A stretch of 64,000 bases of DNA. It comes from Bifidobacterium actinocoloniiforme DSM 22766 (GTDB taxonomy: Bacteria; Actinomycetota; Actinomycetes; Actinomycetales; Bifidobacteriaceae). Under the pieces are notes generated by a model. It searched no databases. It saw only the letters and a list, made by a program, of their open reading frames with translations, and had not been told where the DNA came from. Below, in pieces: positions 35,619 through 55,793 of the stretch (position 1 is the first letter of the stretch; the number at the start of each line of letters is the position of its first letter). The stretch spans positions 248,001 through 312,000 of the forward strand of contig NZ_CP011786.1 of assembly GCF_001263395.1 (NCBI RefSeq), read 5' to 3'. A program made the position numbers and the translations under genes.

Positions 35619-36016
35619 GGGGCTGATCGGTTTCGACGGTGACCTGTTCGTCGCAGGGAAGCGTGCCGAGAACGCGGGGGTCCACTCGTTAATGCCCTCC
35701 CGCAACAATCAAGTGCTAAATCTAACCGCACTGAGTTCGCTCTCGCTGCCTGAGTTTTAAACCAGGATTAACCAGCGAGCTACGGCTCCGTTCACTCTCT
35801 TTCGTTTCCGGGGAGATGCTGAGCGTCATTTAGGAGACTTGCTTGAGCTGCCGCGTCACAGGACGGCTCAGGGACTTTTACTGTGACTATGCCCGCCATC
35901 CGCCGTCTGCGGTATGGGTGGGGGCAGAAAAACAGCCATACGGCCAGCAGACTACGCACGTAGAAGACTGAGGGTACGGTCACCGGACCGGGGTTCAATT
36001 CCCCGCAGCTCCACCA
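35619..36016 (+). ncRNA. ssrA: transfer-messenger RNA (tmRNA)
   Basis: Rescues stalled ribosomes and tags the nascent peptide. The 5' GGGGCTG pairs with 3' CAGCTCC, followed by A and an encoded CCA at 36014-36016. The resume codon is GCT at 35715 and the tag reads AKSNRTEFALAA, ending at TGA 35751-35753. The T-arm GGGTTCAATTCCC is intact. The gene is complete despite the prophage beside it, so integration restored the 3' end. Confidence 0.97.
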
Positions 36017-36162: not shown

Positions 36163-36170
36163 GATTGGTC

Positions 36171-37472
36171 ATGGGAAGAACGAGGGCATTCGGCAGCATC
36201 GCCTACAAGCCATCCAAGCAACGGCTCACACGGATCGTGGCATCCTTCCTGACCCCGCAGGAAGCGTTCGCCACATGGCCCAATCTGGCCGAGCGGCAAA
36301 GCAAGTCATTTCCGCCTGGCCAGGAGGACGAGGCGCGAGCCTGGTTGAGCATGGCGCACAAGAAGATAGAGGCCGGAGTATGGGAGCCTCCTGTGGCAGT
36401 CAAACAACGGGAGAAGTCGGCCCGTCTTACACTGGGGGAGTACTTCCCACAATGGCTCGAGGACCGCACCTTCAAGGGGCGGCCGTTGAAAGCAGGCACC
36501 CGGTACCGGCTGAGGAAGGATGTTGAGAACCACATTCTGCCTTGGTTCGGTGCCATGCGCCTCATCGACATCACCCAGGCCGAAATAGACCGTTGGCTAG
36601 CCTCCATGCCCGCAGAGCAGACCGCTATGAAGTCCAACGCGTTGAAGGCGCTGCAAGCCATCCTCAGATCCGCAAGCCAACCCGGCCTGCACGGAGAGCC
36701 AGCCTTGATTCCCGTGTACCCGTGCACCAAGTCCCTGCCCAAGCCCGAACGGCGCAGCCAGACTGTGCCCGCCACGCCGGAACAGGTCAAGGCCATTTAT
36801 GACGCCATGCCTGAACGCTATCGTATGGCCGTTTACTTGGCCGTGTTCGGTGACGGGCTGCGCATAGGCGAGGTGTGTGCGCTGCAACGGCGGGACATCG
36901 ACCTCACCTCACGGACGCTGCATATCCGTCGCGGGCGCGTGACCATGGATCGCTCGAAGACGACCGACACACCCAAGACCGACCGCAGTATCCGCGACGA
37001 GCGCATACCGCCCCAACTGGTTCCATTGCTCCAGGACTTCCTCGCGGAATACGTAGGCTCAGCGGGAACGGCATGGCTCTTCCCGAAAGTGAAGGATTCT
37101 TCCGCACCCGTGCATCCCAACTCTTTGCGCGCCTGGTATGACGACGCCAGGAAGGAAGCCGGCCGACCTGATCTGCGCTTCCACGACCTGCGCCACACCG
37201 GCCTGACCTGGCTGGCGGCCGAGGGTGCCACCGTCCGCGAGCTCATGGATGCGGCCGGCCACGCTGACGTGAACACTGCCATGCGCTACCAGCATTCCCT
37301 CGACACCCGAAAGGACCTGCTGGCCGAGCGCCTGGGCGACAAACTCCTGCCGGACGAGACGCCGGAGATTCTGCGAGCGCGGATCGCAGATCTCGAAAAG
37401 AGGATTCGGAAGATGCAGCGGGAGAGGCGAAGCCTGCGCGAAAAGTTGAAAACGCTGGAGGCACAACTCTAG
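36171..37472 (+). CDS. int: tyrosine-type site-specific integrase
   Basis: 433 residues from the ATG at 36171 (AGGA 7 bases upstream; a TTG at 36165 is in frame). N-terminal AP2-like arm-binding region, core-binding SAM-like domain (TLGEYFPQWLEDRTFKGRPLK), and catalytic domain with Arg in GDGLRIGEVCALQ, HDLRHTGLTWLA (HxxR), GHADVNTAMRYQHS (His and nucleophile Tyr). A C-terminal coiled coil (RIADLEKRIRKMQRERRSLREKLKTLEAQL region) is unusual in length. It integrates and, with a partner, excises the phage at ssrA. Confidence 0.96.
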   Translation: MGRTRAFGSIAYKPSKQRLTRIVASFLTPQEAFATWPNLAERQSKSFPPGQEDEARAWLSMAHKKIEAGVWEPPVAVKQREKSARLTLGEYFPQWLEDRTFKGRPLKAGTRYRLRKDVENHILPWFGAMRLIDITQAEIDRWLASMPAEQTAMKSNALKALQAILRSASQPGLHGEPALIPVYPCTKSLPKPERRSQTVPATPEQVKAIYDAMPERYRMAVYLAVFGDGLRIGEVCALQRRDIDLTSRTLHIRRGRVTMDRSKTTDTPKTDRSIRDERIPPQLVPLLQDFLAEYVGSAGTAWLFPKVKDSSAPVHPNSLRAWYDDARKEAGRPDLRFHDLRHTGLTWLAAEGATVRELMDAAGHADVNTAMRYQHSLDTRKDLLAERLGDKLLPDETPEILRARIADLEKRIRKMQRERRSLREKLKTLEAQL

Positions 37473-49969: not shown

Positions 49970-50854
49970 TCACGCCGCCTTCTTCAATACGGCGATGCCC
50001 TGCGGGTCGAGCACTGTGTAGGAGTAGACCGCCTGCGTACGGTAGGCGATCTGACCGTAGTGCTTGAGGTCCTGTCCGACGCCGTCGGGGTCGCCGTACT
50101 CGATGATCTCCGAGGTGATGTTGCGCACCATGCCCCACTTGATCAGGCTGAAATCGCCAAGGAAGGCAAGCACGTTCGTGTCGGTCGTGCAGAGCCGTCC
50201 GTTGACCGTGCCGCTTGTGGAGGCGGGGATGCCGTCAAGGCCGCCGACCTGCAGGTTGATGGGGATTTCGGGGTAGAGGCGCATGCCGGTGGCGGGCACC
50301 CTCAGCTTGCGCAGGCTTGCGGCCCACGTCTTGGACAGAGCGATGCCGTTGATGTCGTACTCATCGCTCACGGCTTCGGCGAGCGCGTCCAGGCTGGACA
50401 CGTCGTCATCCTTCGCATTGACCTGTATGGCGGTGTCGCGCAGCTTGCTGTAACCTTCGAGTTCGGTCTTGGACTTGGGGTCGAGCCCGTGGAAGACCAC
50501 GTAGTCGAGCGCGCGGCCCATCGCTGCGGCCTGGTCGGATTGGATGCTGTCGATGATCTGGAGTTTGGCGTCGTCGTCGGCCCATTTGAGCTCCTCGTTG
50601 ATGCGGGTGGTGGTCACGACCTTGAACCGTTTGCCCACGATCGGGGTGAGGGTCTGCTCGTAGCTGCCTTTCTTCTGGCCTTCGGCCACGACCTCGGCTT
50701 CGGACTGTCCGGAGAACACCATGAACTTGTCGTCCAGGAACAGTTGCGGGGTGCTGGGGCTGAGGGCGGCGATGGTGCTGGTGTCCTTGGCCTTCTTGGT
50801 GATTGCGAGGGCTACGTTGCTCGGCAGCGTGACCTTGGTGCTTTCCAATGCCAT
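49970..50854 (-). CDS. major capsid protein (HK97 fold)
   Basis: 294 residues. The N-arm is followed by FLDDKFMVFSGQSEAEVVAEGQKKGSYEQTLTPIVGKRFKVV, the strand pattern at the start of the E-loop region, and later LRKLRVPATGMRLYPEIPINLQ and WGMVRNITSEIIEYGDPD. Follows a scaffold gene and precedes connectors. It lacks a long N-terminal delta domain because the scaffold is a separate protein. Confidence 0.88.
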   Translation of the reverse strand: MALESTKVTLPSNVALAITKKAKDTSTIAALSPSTPQLFLDDKFMVFSGQSEAEVVAEGQKKGSYEQTLTPIVGKRFKVVTTTRINEELKWADDDAKLQIIDSIQSDQAAAMGRALDYVVFHGLDPKSKTELEGYSKLRDTAIQVNAKDDDVSSLDALAEAVSDEYDINGIALSKTWAASLRKLRVPATGMRLYPEIPINLQVGGLDGIPASTSGTVNGRLCTTDTNVLAFLGDFSLIKWGMVRNITSEIIEYGDPDGVGQDLKHYGQIAYRTQAVYSYTVLDPQGIAVLKKAA

Positions 50855-50875: not shown

Positions 50876-51406
50876 TTATTTGGTGCCGAACATCTGGTTG
50901 ATGTAGTTGAGCTTTTCGGCCCGTTCCGGGTCGGCACCGTGGTTTGGTGTGCCGTTTTGGTTGTGTACGGCTGCGCCTTTTGGTTTCGGATGGAGGTAAC
51001 CGTCGAGCCGCTTGGCGAAATCCTGCATCTCTTCAAGGCTTCCGCCCCTGATGAGGTCTGCGGGCACATTGGTTTCCTTGGCGACTTGAGCGCGCCACTG
51101 GGCCTGTCGCTTCTCGGCCTCGTAGGCGGTGACCTTGCCTTCGAGCTCCTTGATATGGGCTTCGGCTTTCTGCGCGTCGGTCATCTGGCTGGCCTTGAGC
51201 TGTTCCAGCTCGTCCGCGGCGGCCTTGTTGTCCTTGGCGCGCTTCTCCCAGTCACGGGAGTGTTTCATGGCCTCGTTGTACTTGGCCTCCCAATCGGTCG
51301 GTTCGCCGCTTTCGACAGGGTCCTTTTCGGATTCGGTTGGGGCGGAGCCGCCAGCGCTGCCGGAGTCGATGGTGCGGATGTGCTTGCAGAGCGGGAAGCC
51401 ATGCAT
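50876..51406 (-). CDS. capsid scaffolding protein
   Basis: 176 residues, strongly helical and charged. Coiled coil from about residue 38 to 110 (EAMKHSRDWEKRAKDNKAAADELEQLKA, KAEAHIKELEGKVTAYEAEK) and a short C-terminal capsid-binding tail. Good AAAGGAG site. Is likely removed from the shell during packaging. Lies just before the capsid gene and after a terminator. Confidence 0.85.
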   Translation of the reverse strand: MHGFPLCKHIRTIDSGSAGGSAPTESEKDPVESGEPTDWEAKYNEAMKHSRDWEKRAKDNKAAADELEQLKASQMTDAQKAEAHIKELEGKVTAYEAEKRQAQWRAQVAKETNVPADLIRGGSLEEMQDFAKRLDGYLHPKPKGAAVHNQNGTPNHGADPERAEKLNYINQMFGTK

Positions 51407-51445: not shown

Positions 51446-51472
51446 ATAAAAAAACCACCCGTGCGGGTGGTT
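51446..51472 (-). terminator. rho-independent terminator
   Basis: Minus-strand stem AACCACCC/GGGTGGTT (51453-51472) with a 4-base loop and a following run of seven or more T (51446-51452). Ends transcripts from the MuF and immunity-like genes before the scaffold gene. Confidence 0.9.
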
Positions 51473-51493
51473 GGGAAAATCTATCAGTCGGCG

Positions 51494-51766
51494 CTAGATG
51501 GCGGCGGTTTGTCGTTGAGGAAGCAGATGCAGGTACAATTCCTTGTCCTCGTCATCAAGCAGGTTGAAGGCGGAGAAAAGCGTATCGTCGGGAATCTTCC
51601 GCGCGTCTTGGGCGGTGATGCTGGAAAAGAACCAGGCAAGGGCCTCGTAGGGCTCTCCCGCGAGGACCGCGCCGTCGCAGGATATCCTGTCTTGCTGATC
51701 GAGCAGGGGGAATACATAGGGCTTCATTTCGGCAACCGATTGTGCGATTAGTTGGTCATCCGCCAT
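51494..51766 (-). CDS. small acidic protein, candidate immunity protein for the MuF toxin
   Basis: 90 residues from the ATG at 51766 (GGAGG 5 bases upstream). Very acidic, helical; CDGAVLAGEPYEALAWFFSSI followed by IPDDTLFSAFNLL recalls MafI-type immunity proteins (AGEP-x-x-AL), but this is by eye. It overlaps the 3' end of the MuF gene by 19 bases and is followed by a terminator. It is too small and acidic for a structural protein. Neutralising the MuF C-terminal domain is the inferred job. Confidence 0.6.
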   Translation of the reverse strand: MADDQLIAQSVAEMKPYVFPLLDQQDRISCDGAVLAGEPYEALAWFFSSITAQDARKIPDDTLFSAFNLLDDEDKELYLHLLPQRQTAAI

Positions 51767-52908
51767 ATCTTCCTCCATTCATGCTCGGTCATCGGATAAG
51801 CGGTGTGCAACGCGAATCGTCCGTGCGTGTTTCGCCTCTTCTGCAACCATACTCTAATATGCTGGCCGTCCATAAGTTTGGAGAGATATTCACGGTTGCC
51901 GTCTTTCGCGGCGCTGACATAGTCTGGGTTTGCAATGGATTCCATTACCGCCCATTTGACTCGGCTCTCACTCCAATCGTCAGGGAAATGCGTTTTGTGG
52001 GGTACCCTAGTGCCAGGTCCATGTCCGTCGAACACGTGATCCCAACCATGTCCTTGTGGGCGGATTACTTCCATGGGCCAGGGGGCGGAAAGCGGCCAGG
52101 TGCCATCCTTGACCTGATCCGGATACATTCGGCGCATCTGCCGGAGCGCTTGCCGGTAGTCGGCGGATGAAGCGGCGCTTTTGGCTGTCTGGTACATCTC
52201 GGCGAAGCGTTTGGGGTCGTATCCTTTAAGGATCTGACGGCCCCAGCTGGGCACGATGTCGCAGTCGCATTTGTCGTGATACTGCATCTGCCTGCCGGCC
52301 GAATCCTCGGAGAGGTAGGCGAAGCCACGGGAGGCGAGCATCACGCAGAACGCGCAGGTCTTCGACCCGCGCGGCACTCTCGCCCAACGCGGCTTGGTCG
52401 GGTCGATGCGGACGTTGCGCTGCGTGGTAAGCCGGGCGGAGGCGGCGATCATGTCGGCGACGAACTGCTGTGCGTCGTCCACGGTGGACATCGAGGGCCA
52501 CAGGTCGTCGATGCTCGCGCCGGCCCGCGAACGGCCCTCCTTGACCTGGGTGTAGTTCAGGCCATTGTAATCGGTGTCGGAAAACCCGCCCTGCACCTGC
52601 CACAGGGCACGGTCGGGGTCGATGAGTTCCGCATGGTCGAACCCGGGGAAGTCGACGCCGGCGTACTCCGACCACAATCGGCGTTGCACATCATAGTAGT
52701 CGTTCGCGAGCTGTGAGGCGTCGCGAGCGTATTCCCGTACAAATTCCTTGACGTTCATCGGATCGGTGCGAAGCATCTCCTCGATGCTGTCCGTGGCCGA
52801 ATCGGTCAGGTTCTCGATATCGTCGATGTAGTTTTCATGCGCTCTGTCCAGCAGGCGTTGCAGCTCCTGTTTCCGGTCCGGAGGCAGGCTCAGATCGTTC
52901 AGGTCCAT
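51748..52908 (-). CDS. MuF-type minor head protein with C-terminal nuclease-like toxin domain
   Basis: 386 residues. Residues about 1-170 are helical capsid/portal-binding sequence; the MuF cysteine-histidine motif is at Cys185-x2-Cys188, His211-x2-Cys214-x-Cys216 (ARVPRGSKTCAFC, HDKCDCDIVP). After a linker (225-280), residues 285-375 carry a separate domain: HGWDHVFDGHGPGTRVPHKTHFPDDW ... IRVWLQKRRNTHGRFALHTAYP. The spacing of histidines, Lys305, Thr306 and Trp312, and the final GRF-x-TAYP resemble bacterial EndoU/barnase-like nucleases. Good AGGAGG site. Delivered with DNA, it could act in the recipient or in competing bacteria. The MuF call is firm; the toxin call is an inference. Confidence 0.8.
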   Translation of the reverse strand: MDLNDLSLPPDRKQELQRLLDRAHENYIDDIENLTDSATDSIEEMLRTDPMNVKEFVREYARDASQLANDYYDVQRRLWSEYAGVDFPGFDHAELIDPDRALWQVQGGFSDTDYNGLNYTQVKEGRSRAGASIDDLWPSMSTVDDAQQFVADMIAASARLTTQRNVRIDPTKPRWARVPRGSKTCAFCVMLASRGFAYLSEDSAGRQMQYHDKCDCDIVPSWGRQILKGYDPKRFAEMYQTAKSAASSADYRQALRQMRRMYPDQVKDGTWPLSAPWPMEVIRPQGHGWDHVFDGHGPGTRVPHKTHFPDDWSESRVKWAVMESIANPDYVSAAKDGNREYLSKLMDGQHIRVWLQKRRNTHGRFALHTAYPMTEHEWRKIWRMTN

Positions 52909-54349
52909 TCTGGCCCTCCTTGCCGCCGAATCTTATGCGGGCGATGTTGTCCTTCGTCCGCTTGTCCTGCTGGCTGTCGCGCAGCTGCCGGATCTCATCG
53001 TGGGAAAGGCCCAGCCGGGCGAGTCCCACGTCGCTGTCGGCGTACCCATCGACGAGTGGTGCGATCTTGCTGAAGCTGTCGGCGCGCGCGCCGTCGGACA
53101 CCTCGCGTGTGGGTGCCCACACCGGGTGCACTTTGTGCAGGTCGTCGGGAGGTGTGCGCAGTCCCTCGCGCAGGCACACGGCCATTGACATCGCTTTTTT
53201 CAGCTGCCTGCCGAACGCCTTGTTCTGCCGGTCGGCCACGCGTGTCAGCCGTCGTTCGGCGCTGGCCATCGCCTCGGCCGAACTGGGGTTGTCGAGCGTG
53301 ATGCCGAGATAGTCCACCGGCAGGCGGGTCTCTGCGGCGACGAGCATGGCCACGGTCTTGAGCATGTCGGAATGCGGTTGCATCGATGCCTGCTGCACCT
53401 GCTGTATCTCAGGCCTGTTACCGTCCTCGTCGTAGCCGATCGCGTTGATCGCGCTGATAAGGCTCTTCCACGTGTTCTCGGAAAAGGCGTCCTTGTTCGC
53501 GCCCAGGAACCAGAGTTTCGGCACGGAGTAGAACTCGGCGCTGGCTTCCATGCGCACGATGGTGCGGAACCCGATGTCGGTCAGGGCCATGAGGCTTCGG
53601 CTGATGCGGGAGCGCCCGAAGGGGCGGTCCATCTGCCGGTCGTACGCCAGGGCGACCACGGTCGGCTGTTGGAAGTGCGTCTCGTACCGCTCCGCCCGCC
53701 AGGGCAGGACGTCGCCATGGCATTCGTACACCTTGCCGGGCAGCCACACGTTGAAACCGTTGATACGTCCCTGCCTGTCGTCGCTGGTGATGGTCAGCGC
53801 GGCGGACAGGCGGTTGTTGGCCCGGTCCCAGATGCCCGACGACCAATCGGCCGAACGCGGGGTGAACAGGATGCGATCGGTGTCCTCGGGGTCGACGGCG
53901 ATGGTGATGAAGCTGCACGAGTGCTTGTAGGCGCTGACGATCGCCTCGCCGGCGGTCACGTCGAGCTCGTTGTCCTCGAGCATGTCCTCGATGCCGTGAT
54001 CATCACGCCCGTTCGGGACGCTGAAACCTTGGAAGTCGCTCAGGTCGGACAGCGAGCGCACGGCCAGTTCGGGCCAACCGATCATAGCCTGCGCTCTGTT
54101 CTTGATCTGGTCGGGGATGCTGATGCCGAAGTCGCTGAACCGTTCCTTGGCGTCGTAGTAGGCGCTGCGGATGAGGTTGCGCGGATACTTGCTGCGCCAT
54201 ACCCTCAGCAGTTCGCGGACGGTGGCCATGTCCTCGTCGTCGACCCCAAGGATGTCGGGTATGTCGGAGGATTCGACGGCCAGGTAGCGGCTGCCGGTGA
54301 TTTTCGGCGCGATGTTGGCCCTGGTGCCGTTGGCAAGGTAGAAATCCAT
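52835..54349 (-). CDS. portal protein
   Basis: 504 residues of the SPP1/HK97-type phage portal family of actinophages: IAPKITGSRYLAVES, AITITSDDRQGRINGFNVWLPGKVYECHGD, PVDYLGITLDNPSSAEAMASAERRL. The last region is a helical crown with a Pro/Ser tail. It forms the dodecameric DNA gate at one vertex. The stop overlaps the MuF gene by 74 bases. Confidence 0.92.
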   Translation of the reverse strand: MDFYLANGTRANIAPKITGSRYLAVESSDIPDILGVDDEDMATVRELLRVWRSKYPRNLIRSAYYDAKERFSDFGISIPDQIKNRAQAMIGWPELAVRSLSDLSDFQGFSVPNGRDDHGIEDMLEDNELDVTAGEAIVSAYKHSCSFITIAVDPEDTDRILFTPRSADWSSGIWDRANNRLSAALTITSDDRQGRINGFNVWLPGKVYECHGDVLPWRAERYETHFQQPTVVALAYDRQMDRPFGRSRISRSLMALTDIGFRTIVRMEASAEFYSVPKLWFLGANKDAFSENTWKSLISAINAIGYDEDGNRPEIQQVQQASMQPHSDMLKTVAMLVAAETRLPVDYLGITLDNPSSAEAMASAERRLTRVADRQNKAFGRQLKKAMSMAVCLREGLRTPPDDLHKVHPVWAPTREVSDGARADSFSKIAPLVDGYADSDVGLARLGLSHDEIRQLRDSQQDKRTKDNIARIRFGGKEGQNGPERSEPASGPETGAATPAGQSA

Positions 54350-54350
54350 G

Positions 54351-55793
54351 TCAGACCATCACTTTCTGCACTCGTCCGGGACGTCGTTTGGTGATGAAGG
54401 TGCCGTAGAGCGCCAGCGTGCAGGCGACCAAAGGGCTGATGTCGATGTCGCTGCCGAGCTTGTTCCAGCCGACCGCGCCCGAGCTGCCGATGTTGCGGGT
54501 GGTGGCGTTACTGACAGCGAGGTCGAGGGCGGGTTGTTTACCGTCGTCCAGGTGAGTGAGCTTGCCGTCGCGCAGCATGTCTAGCATGCGTCCGCAGGCG
54601 CGTCCCATGTCGGTGGCGGTGGTGGTAATGACCTTGACGTGGCGGGCTTTCAAGTCGGGCAGGAGGGCCATGGCAGGGGATTGGGCATCGATGACGAGGG
54701 CGGCAGTGCGACTCCAGCGGTCAGCGATCCAGTCCACAGCCCAGGCGGTGCCTTTCGACTGGGTGGACTCGAAAGCCTTCAATTCGATGTGAGCAGTGCC
54801 GTCGCTGTGTTTGACGCAGCCGCCGATGGCCAGGCTTGAGCGGTCTGGTGGCATGTCTATGGCGTAGCCGACCAGTCCGGTGGTGTCCGGTGTGCTGGTG
54901 GCGGCCTGCCGCCATTGCGTGGGGTCGATGGCGCTGCTGATGGTCGCGGTGTCCCAGATGCCCAGGCCCTCGCGACGGAAGCTGTCGGGGCTGAGCTGTT
55001 TCTGCAGGCGCAGGATGGAGCTGGCCGGCGTGCGCCTGGGGTAGGACGGGTTCGCTTTGGACCATTGGTCGCGGTCATCGGGGTCGGCGTCGGGGTCGGC
55101 GCTGAATTCGAGGTAGAGCATGTCGTCGCCGTCGTTGAGCGCTTCCTGCCGGCGCGCGGTGAACGCCTCGGACGGGTCGCCGGGCTTGGGCGGGGTGCCC
55201 ATCATGATCAGCAGGCCATTGTCGGCGGTGTTCATGGCGGGCACCATGTCACTCATGGCGGTCTCGGTCAGAATCTGCGCCTCGTCGAAGATAACCACGC
55301 CCACGCCCTTGAAACCGCGGCCGAAGCCGCGTTCGCGTGCGCCGAATAGTATGCGTGACCCGTTGCTGAAGGCGACCTCCTGCTGGCCGTTGGCGCTGCG
55401 GATGCGGGAGATGTGCCGGCGTACCCCTTTGCGCTGGGCCATGGCGCGCATGTCGCCGAACGTCTCGTCTGAGGTGCGTGAGCGATGGGCGGTCCATAGG
55501 ACCATGAGCCCCGGGTGCAGGATGCACAGCATGAAGACGATGGAGCCGATTAGGAAAGTCTTGCCCACCTGTCGGCACAGGCTCATGACCACGCCGCCGA
55601 CGCCGGCCGCGTACTTGCCATCTGCTCGCTTAGCCAGAATGAGCATGCCCAATCCGTCCTGCCAACGGTCGAACTCGATGCTTAGCAGCGCCTGAGCCAG
55701 GTCCCTGACCCTGGGCCATTCCGAGGAGACGATGCCGGAGGGGATGAGCAGGTGGCGGGCGGACTCAGATAGCTTCGGCGCTGAACGGGACAT
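54351..55793 (-). CDS. terminase large subunit
   Basis: 480 residues. The ATPase motor has a Walker A variant LCRQVGKTFL, Walker B VVIFDEAQIL and a C motif region (LLIMMGTPPK). The C-terminal RNase H-like nuclease has Asp in GYAIDMPPDRSS, and LVIDAQSPAM. Packages DNA into the procapsid. Overlaps the small subunit by 29 bases and is 1 base from the portal gene. Confidence 0.95.
   Translation of the reverse strand: MSRSAPKLSESARHLLIPSGIVSSEWPRVRDLAQALLSIEFDRWQDGLGMLILAKRADGKYAAGVGGVVMSLCRQVGKTFLIGSIVFMLCILHPGLMVLWTAHRSRTSDETFGDMRAMAQRKGVRRHISRIRSANGQQEVAFSNGSRILFGARERGFGRGFKGVGVVIFDEAQILTETAMSDMVPAMNTADNGLLIMMGTPPKPGDPSEAFTARRQEALNDGDDMLYLEFSADPDADPDDRDQWSKANPSYPRRTPASSILRLQKQLSPDSFRREGLGIWDTATISSAIDPTQWRQAATSTPDTTGLVGYAIDMPPDRSSLAIGGCVKHSDGTAHIELKAFESTQSKGTAWAVDWIADRWSRTAALVIDAQSPAMALLPDLKARHVKVITTTATDMGRACGRMLDMLRDGKLTHLDDGKQPALDLAVSNATTRNIGSSGAVGWNKLGSDIDISPLVACTLALYGTFITKRRPGRVQKVMV

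Follow-up and report, generated by a model that had tools for sequence, protein, structure and literature searches.

Genes at the locus

The window, that is the whole 64,000-nucleotide stretch of Bifidobacterium actinocoloniiforme DSM 22766 that we analyzed (contig NZ_CP011786.1, positions 248,001 to 312,000), carries a prophage with a MuF-type head protein gene and a small overlapping gene among its head genes. The features that matter here, in positions of the window, are the following.

35619-36016: tmRNA gene, next to the integrase gene
36165..37472, plus strand: prophage integrase (by sequence), adjoining the tmRNA gene; left prophage end
49970..50854, minus strand: probable major capsid protein (from position and annotated relatives)
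50876..51406, minus strand: head scaffolding protein (phrog_9857)
51453..51472, minus strand: hairpin of 8 bp with a T-tract, separating the scaffold gene from the immunity gene
51494..51766, minus strand: acidic, all-helical putative immunity protein of 90 aa; Shine-Dalgarno sequence GGAGGA at 51771-51776, inside the toxin gene
51748..52908, minus strand: MuF/VG15 minor head protein with a C-terminal EndoU-type domain, a putative phage polymorphic toxin of 386 aa
51751..52095, minus strand: EndoU/BECR-type domain, residues 272-386, with candidate catalytic residues H291, H296 and T369 (of TAYP)
52099..52908, minus strand: conserved MuF part, residues 1-270, with the swap junction at about residue 268-270
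52835..54349, minus strand: portal protein (SPP1_portal, phrog_104)
54351..55793, minus strand: probable terminase large subunit (from position and annotated relatives)

We find that the N-terminal part of the 386-residue protein is a head protein of known type. Pfam VG15 (PF25310) matches residues 100-242 (E = 6e-43), the PHROG head-maturation family phrog_13257 matches residues 15-259 (E = 5e-70), and C185, C188, H211 and C216 are invariant in an alignment of its relatives. A preliminary description of this DNA had called a MuF head protein, and the profile matches and invariant Cys/His residues bear this out; both ORFs lie on the minus strand where it had placed them, with the 19-base overlap it had reported. 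Both genes are flanked by those for the portal and the scaffolding protein, and the same MuF gene is found on an IMG/VR viral contig of 37,717 bp. MuF polymorphic toxins are recognized by an N-terminal MuF-type head domain, an extension of at least 100 residues with a varying toxin domain, a downstream ORF of fewer than 150 residues, and a location among the packaging and head genes of a temperate phage. Here the VG15 and phrog_13257 profiles identify the head domain, the extension is about 116 residues long and varies over at least five domain classes, the downstream ORF has 90 residues and overlaps by 19 nt, and the packaging/head module is recognized from profiles (portal, scaffold), position (terminase, capsid) and the integrase beside the tmRNA gene.

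A strong terminator had been described at 51446-51472. A hairpin with a T run is indeed present, and it recurs at the matching place in five relatives (L014, L018, L003, L026 and L027), but its strength is not borne out: terminator-like sites in the region are no commoner than in shuffles (3 found versus 3.1 expected) and the fold z-score is only -1.5. Lying between the toxin/immunity genes and the scaffold gene, the hairpin may serve the head operon as a step-down point.

An EndoU-type domain at the C-terminus

To the C-terminal domain, the preliminary description had attributed features of EndoU/barnase-like nucleases. The Pfam model EndoU_bacteria (PF14436) scores the window's domain alone at 21.8 bits, below its cut-off of 25.3; it is matched by 8 of the 11 members of the domain's alignment (best E = 2.4e-7), with one relative, L067, above the cut-off at 30.9 bits. 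Across the family W289, H291, H296, F308, P309 and W312 are invariant. The two histidines and the T/S-x-x-P motif by which EndoU_bacteria is recognized correspond to H291, H296 and the TAYP strand at 369-372, while the EndoU catalytic lysine could not be assigned in the window's domain from sequence. Family matches and invariant residues thus uphold an EndoU-type, nuclease-like C-terminus, with the score of the domain by itself below the cut-off.

Structure prediction of the domain alone, which the preliminary description had proposed, gave an AlphaFold model with a mean pLDDT of 94.5. Foldseek with this model returned no match reaching E 0.001. With VIA-align, BECR RNases head the match list: the top eight matches are all toxins that come from toxin-antitoxin or CDI systems, and almost all have the RelE/BECR type; they include the toxin-antitoxin toxin 7vd7 (Z = 7.7), CdiA 7m5f (7.0), CdiA-CT 5e3e (6.7), BrnT (6.0) and additional CdiA toxins (5.2-5.3). 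The calcium-activated EndoU 9ftw superimposes at 2.7 Å across 86 residues. All fold Z-scores are below 8, which alone would be no proof; an EndoU-type RNase is preferred because the motif and the family matches are added to the fold, and on these three lines it is the best reading of the domain.

Might the C-terminus instead be a degenerate structural extension without toxicity, with the 90-residue gene an unrelated small head gene? The weak EndoU score of the single domain would suit this, as would a PDB sequence search with profiles of the EndoU-type domain and of the immunity family, which gave nothing credible and so offers no solved structure of detectable sequence similarity. The invariant W/H/H/FP/W pattern and the confident BECR-type model speak against it, and so does the 90-residue gene, which moves with EndoU domains and also occurs without any head gene. 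We consider this explanation very improbable.

Exchange of C-termini on a conserved head part

The preliminary description had also suggested comparing the C-termini of related phages, and we find that they differ from one another behind a conserved MuF part, with the junction near residue 270. The closest relatives share 57-61% identity over the MuF part, and similarity ends at residues 270-274. Behind the junction lie EndoU, ADP-ribosyltransferase, zincin-like, papain-like or other nuclease domains, usually with a different small gene following. For instance, there is an ADP-ribosyltransferase on ctl617 (E = 1e-21), a papain-fold glutamine deamidase on L026 (E = 4.5e-14) and a CdiA_C domain on L066 (E = 2.8e-18); further relatives carry zincin-like HExxH or other EndoU domains, and two MuF relatives (B22 and L009) have nothing behind the junction.

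A small ORF directly follows 26 of 31 MuF proteins of EndoU, zincin, papain or ADP-ribosyltransferase type versus 3 of 20 short MuF proteins, in a count with classes assigned by motif, and by Pfam on representatives, in which close relatives are included so that the cases are not independent events. By the simple adjacency rule, 3 of 14 EndoU-type MuF genes (L023, L025 and L042) have no such ORF. The pattern repeats a result of Jamet et al. 2017 (PMC5576092) for MuF proteins across phages, with a small ORF in 89.4% versus 25.5%.

The 90-residue gene as a probable immunity gene

The small gene begins inside the toxin gene, with the Shine-Dalgarno sequence GGAGGA 4 nt ahead of its ATG, and the 19-nt overlap suggests that its translation is coupled to that of the toxin gene. 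Its product is modeled as all-helical (pLDDT 88), and the conserved core of its family is AGEPYxAL. No Pfam, PHROG or NCBIfam model matched the family, PADLOC gave no match, and a fold search with the 90-residue protein found nothing above Z 3.7; no solved fold was matched, which does not argue for a new fold. A likeness to MafI-type immunity proteins had been claimed earlier. This finds no support, since neither the 90-residue protein nor its 12 homologs match a MafI model in NCBIfam or Pfam, or any other credible model there, stray sub-threshold matches of single members being all that was seen.

Of 189 Bifidobacteriaceae genomes, 31 have a homolog of the gene. Members of the family lie directly behind an EndoU domain in intact MuF prophages (L016/L103, L017 and L106) and also in four remnants (L008, L010, L012 and L014) in which the immunity ORF is intact and the toxin gene broken or truncated; in L008 much of the MuF part is gone and the EndoU domain is still open. 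The earlier proposal that the downstream gene confers immunity is strengthened by both observations, that the family travels with EndoU domains and that it stays intact where the toxin is broken. Copies apart from the toxin had been named as evidence against the pairing. Such copies do occur, as intact orphans in host CRISPR arrays, some of them behind broken EndoU remnants; retained in this way by hosts, they support the immunity role rather than refute it. From this pattern of gene neighborhoods, we propose that the gene is the probable immunity gene of the MuF-EndoU toxin and that its family is an undescribed EndoU-immunity family.

An RNA and a tRNA in the immunity slot of sister phages

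One toxin class departs from this arrangement. Behind MuF proteins that end in a nuclease with an ELKS motif, a small ORF is found in none of 8 cases. A subgroup of this type, marked by HEIVFLE, instead has a conserved RNA of about 60 nt with an outer stem, followed by a tRNA-Tyr(GUA). The loci of the RNA and tRNA-Tyr are the following.

L018 4776-4941
L032 4800-4968
L078 4380-4549
L131 2502-2673
L007 826-993

The outer stem of 8 bp is paired in all 6 sequences tested and covaries, with 2-4 pair types at each position. The tRNA is present in all complete loci except the most diverged (L135), and one phage tRNA-Tyr is about 72% identical to the host tRNA-Tyr. An Rfam search of the sister-phage RNA scored only the tRNA, with no family for the RNA of about 60 nt. 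We read the structured RNA and tRNA-Tyr as a putative RNA-based immunity determinant.

Immunity genes inside host CRISPR arrays

Homologs of the EndoU-type immunity gene, as well as immunity genes of other MuF toxin classes, are found as oversized intervals between the repeats of host CRISPR arrays of I-E-like and II-C type. Our survey covered the regions around immunity or MuF matches in public genomes. In genome G005, two immunity homologs occupy one interval each, of 305 and 423 nt (L146 8183-8487 and 8760-9182), in an I-E-like array with normal spacers of 33 nt; the 305-nt interval is flanked by perfect repeats and contains an ORF with a Shine-Dalgarno sequence. In a second example, Bifidobacterium bombi (L014), whose array is of type II-C (PMC4521832), a piece of 1,594 nt (L014 4011-5604) stands after 25 repeats and before 4 more. 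It holds a MuF fragment, EndoU, the immunity gene and the scaffold gene and is 87% identical to the window prophage, which spacers 5 and 6 of this array, next to each other, match at 28 of 28 and 26 of 28 bases. The window's own genome has a homolog of the 90-residue gene (G000:C1:1659894-1660157; L145 7895-8158) with a decayed EndoU C-terminus in front. Degenerate repeats flank this homolog where an I-E-like array of about 80 repeats ends, and the preceding interval, of 654 nt, contains another, different immunity-like ORF (L145 6818-7075, minus strand). Misassembly is less likely for G005 and for this genome, since both are single contigs.

Other toxin classes show the same arrangement. One array of G156 (L191) has separate intervals for an ADP-ribosyltransferase-type toxin region, for the end of a zincin-type toxin plus its immunity gene, and for one immunity gene each of the EndoU and the papain type; the later intervals lie between degenerate repeats. 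Zincin-type immunity genes fill intervals of 2,170 and 1,040 nt in G088 (L253), with perfect or near-perfect flanking repeats, and one of 316 nt in G168 (L254 7857-8172). The RNA-type determinant occurs here as well: a CRISPR interval of G052 holds a toxin end, the RNA and a decayed tRNA (L159 9933-10829), and in G088 (L253 600-1100) a toxin end, a hairpin and a tRNA-Tyr lie directly against the array, the leader there being seen as a hairpin only, unaligned. In G170, G183, G162 and G187, immunity genes lie about 90-320 nt from array ends, and in B. bohemicum (G150) a phage piece abuts the array end. Further oversized intervals (L191 3731-4858 and 5277-6020; L159 9074-9844) contain ORFs without a MuF-phage match, for small proteins that look membrane-bound or secreted; these are candidates for more captured genes.

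Regarding origin, the left ends of the inserts begin with the usual first base of a spacer in 7 of 9 well-preserved cases (G156, G088 and G168), as do 49 of 57 normal spacers. If recombination through two spacers had produced an insert, a PAM should stand 33 nt ahead of its right end, and none was seen in this small sample. Because of the usual first base on the left and the absence of that PAM on the right, capture of one long piece fits better.

Decaying prophages might merely happen to lie near arrays whose old repeats decay. Several loci (G000, G150 and G156) agree with this, as they lie at the trailer end and their repeats are degenerate, and the content of the array loci is ascertained, since they were found through immunity matches. 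Chance proximity accounts poorly for the intervals of 305, 1,040 and 2,170 nt with perfect or near-perfect flanking repeats, and for a single array in which different intervals hold immunity genes against different classes of toxin. It also accounts poorly for a comparison of the fetched loci, some of them common to more than one set: an array lies within 1.5 kb of 0 of 26 MuF loci outside array-borne remnants versus 10 of 50 EndoU-immunity and 5 of 21 zincin-immunity loci. We hold chance proximity to be possible but rather unlikely. The alternative that we put forward, at even chances, is that the oversized "spacers" in CRISPR arrays of Bifidobacteriaceae are captured antidotes to phage toxins carried in the head, which would protect the cell against the incoming toxin. 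The cargo would then consist of protein-coding immunity genes, and for one toxin class an RNA/tRNA, beside ordinary spacers. We found no report of immunity genes inside CRISPR arrays in the open-access literature.

Proposed action of the pair

Proteins of the MuF family are placed into the phage head in a few copies, and the MuF part would bring a few copies of the toxin protein there. The EndoU-type domain, a putative metal-independent RNase, may ride in the head, enter the next cell with the DNA and cut RNA; alternatively, it may act late in the producing cell, again by cutting RNA. The 90-residue helical protein, presumably made by coupling from inside the toxin gene, would bind and block the domain. 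The producing lysogen would then be protected, and cells without the 90-residue protein would be harmed or pushed to one infection outcome. Taken as a whole, a prophage-encoded MuF-family polymorphic toxin with its cognate immunity protein, acting in this manner, is with considerable confidence the best explanation of the locus.

The domain could instead be a tool that the phage uses inside the infected cell, to shut off the host or to process RNA, and not a virion-borne weapon; the 90-residue protein would then time its activity. Jamet et al. 2017 propose, as an alternative of this kind, that the lysogeny decision is affected, and the gene coupling in a late operon is compatible with either reading. 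However, the head protein is combined with unrelated toxin classes in turn, as a rule together with a small gene particular to the class, and hosts retain orphan immunity genes. Given the toxin swapping and the orphan genes kept by hosts, antagonism between cells or phages fits better, and we regard the in-cell tool as a doubtful alternative.

As the homologs show, hosts keep immunity genes against phage-head toxins inside their CRISPR arrays. If selected, these genes would link adaptive immunity with toxin immunity, and they would independently support the view that infected cells suffer harm from MuF toxins. Oversized array intervals may also offer a shortcut, as a catalogue of the genes on which bacterial survival of phage toxins depends.

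Comparison with known systems

The closest known systems are the MuF polymorphic toxins (PMC5576092), with which the window pair shares the MuF domain, the C-terminal toxin domain, the small downstream ORF and the head/packaging module. It differs in belonging to a different phage, in an immunity family without a described model, and in the family members in CRISPR arrays, which we did not find reported. The preliminary description had taken a bifidobacterial phage to be a new setting for such toxins. This cannot stand, since Jamet et al. 2017 (PMC5576092) already list an EndoU MuF4 toxin from Bifidobacterium bifidum, with an extension of 113 aa; they also report one MuF toxin-immunity module common to MafB. 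Experimental precedent for the class comes from the Apk2 MuF toxins (PMC12226406), whose domain is toxic in E. coli and is neutralized by the linked immunity genes IapK/Aph1. The chemistry of Apk2 is (p)ppApp synthesis, whereas we read the window's domain as one for RNA cleavage.

With the Tox-EndoU/EndoU_bacteria and BECR toxins (Zhang et al. 2012, PMC3482391; CdiA-CT, XendoU), our domain shares the two histidines and T-x-x-P, a predicted BECR-type fold, the position at the C-terminus and the adjacent immunity gene. Its carrier is a phage head protein rather than a secretion system, and its sequence is below the Pfam cut-off. The array-borne genes recall CreTA, the CRISPR-regulated toxin-antitoxin systems, in tying toxin/antitoxin elements to CRISPR loci. 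The CreTA systems (for example PMC10097628) safeguard CRISPR-Cas and use small RNAs, whereas here immunity genes against phage toxins lie between array repeats. Finally, phage tRNAs that counter tRNA nucleases (PMC11555353, PMC10264068) offer a parallel to the sister phages, in that a phage tRNA-Tyr restores a pool attacked by a nuclease; the tRNA-Tyr and structured RNA of the sister phages differ in that they take the immunity slot, following a head-borne nuclease that the phage itself encodes. Set against these systems, the window pair alone is a new member of the MuF toxins, and the surprise lies outside the window, in the immunity genes borne by CRISPR arrays.
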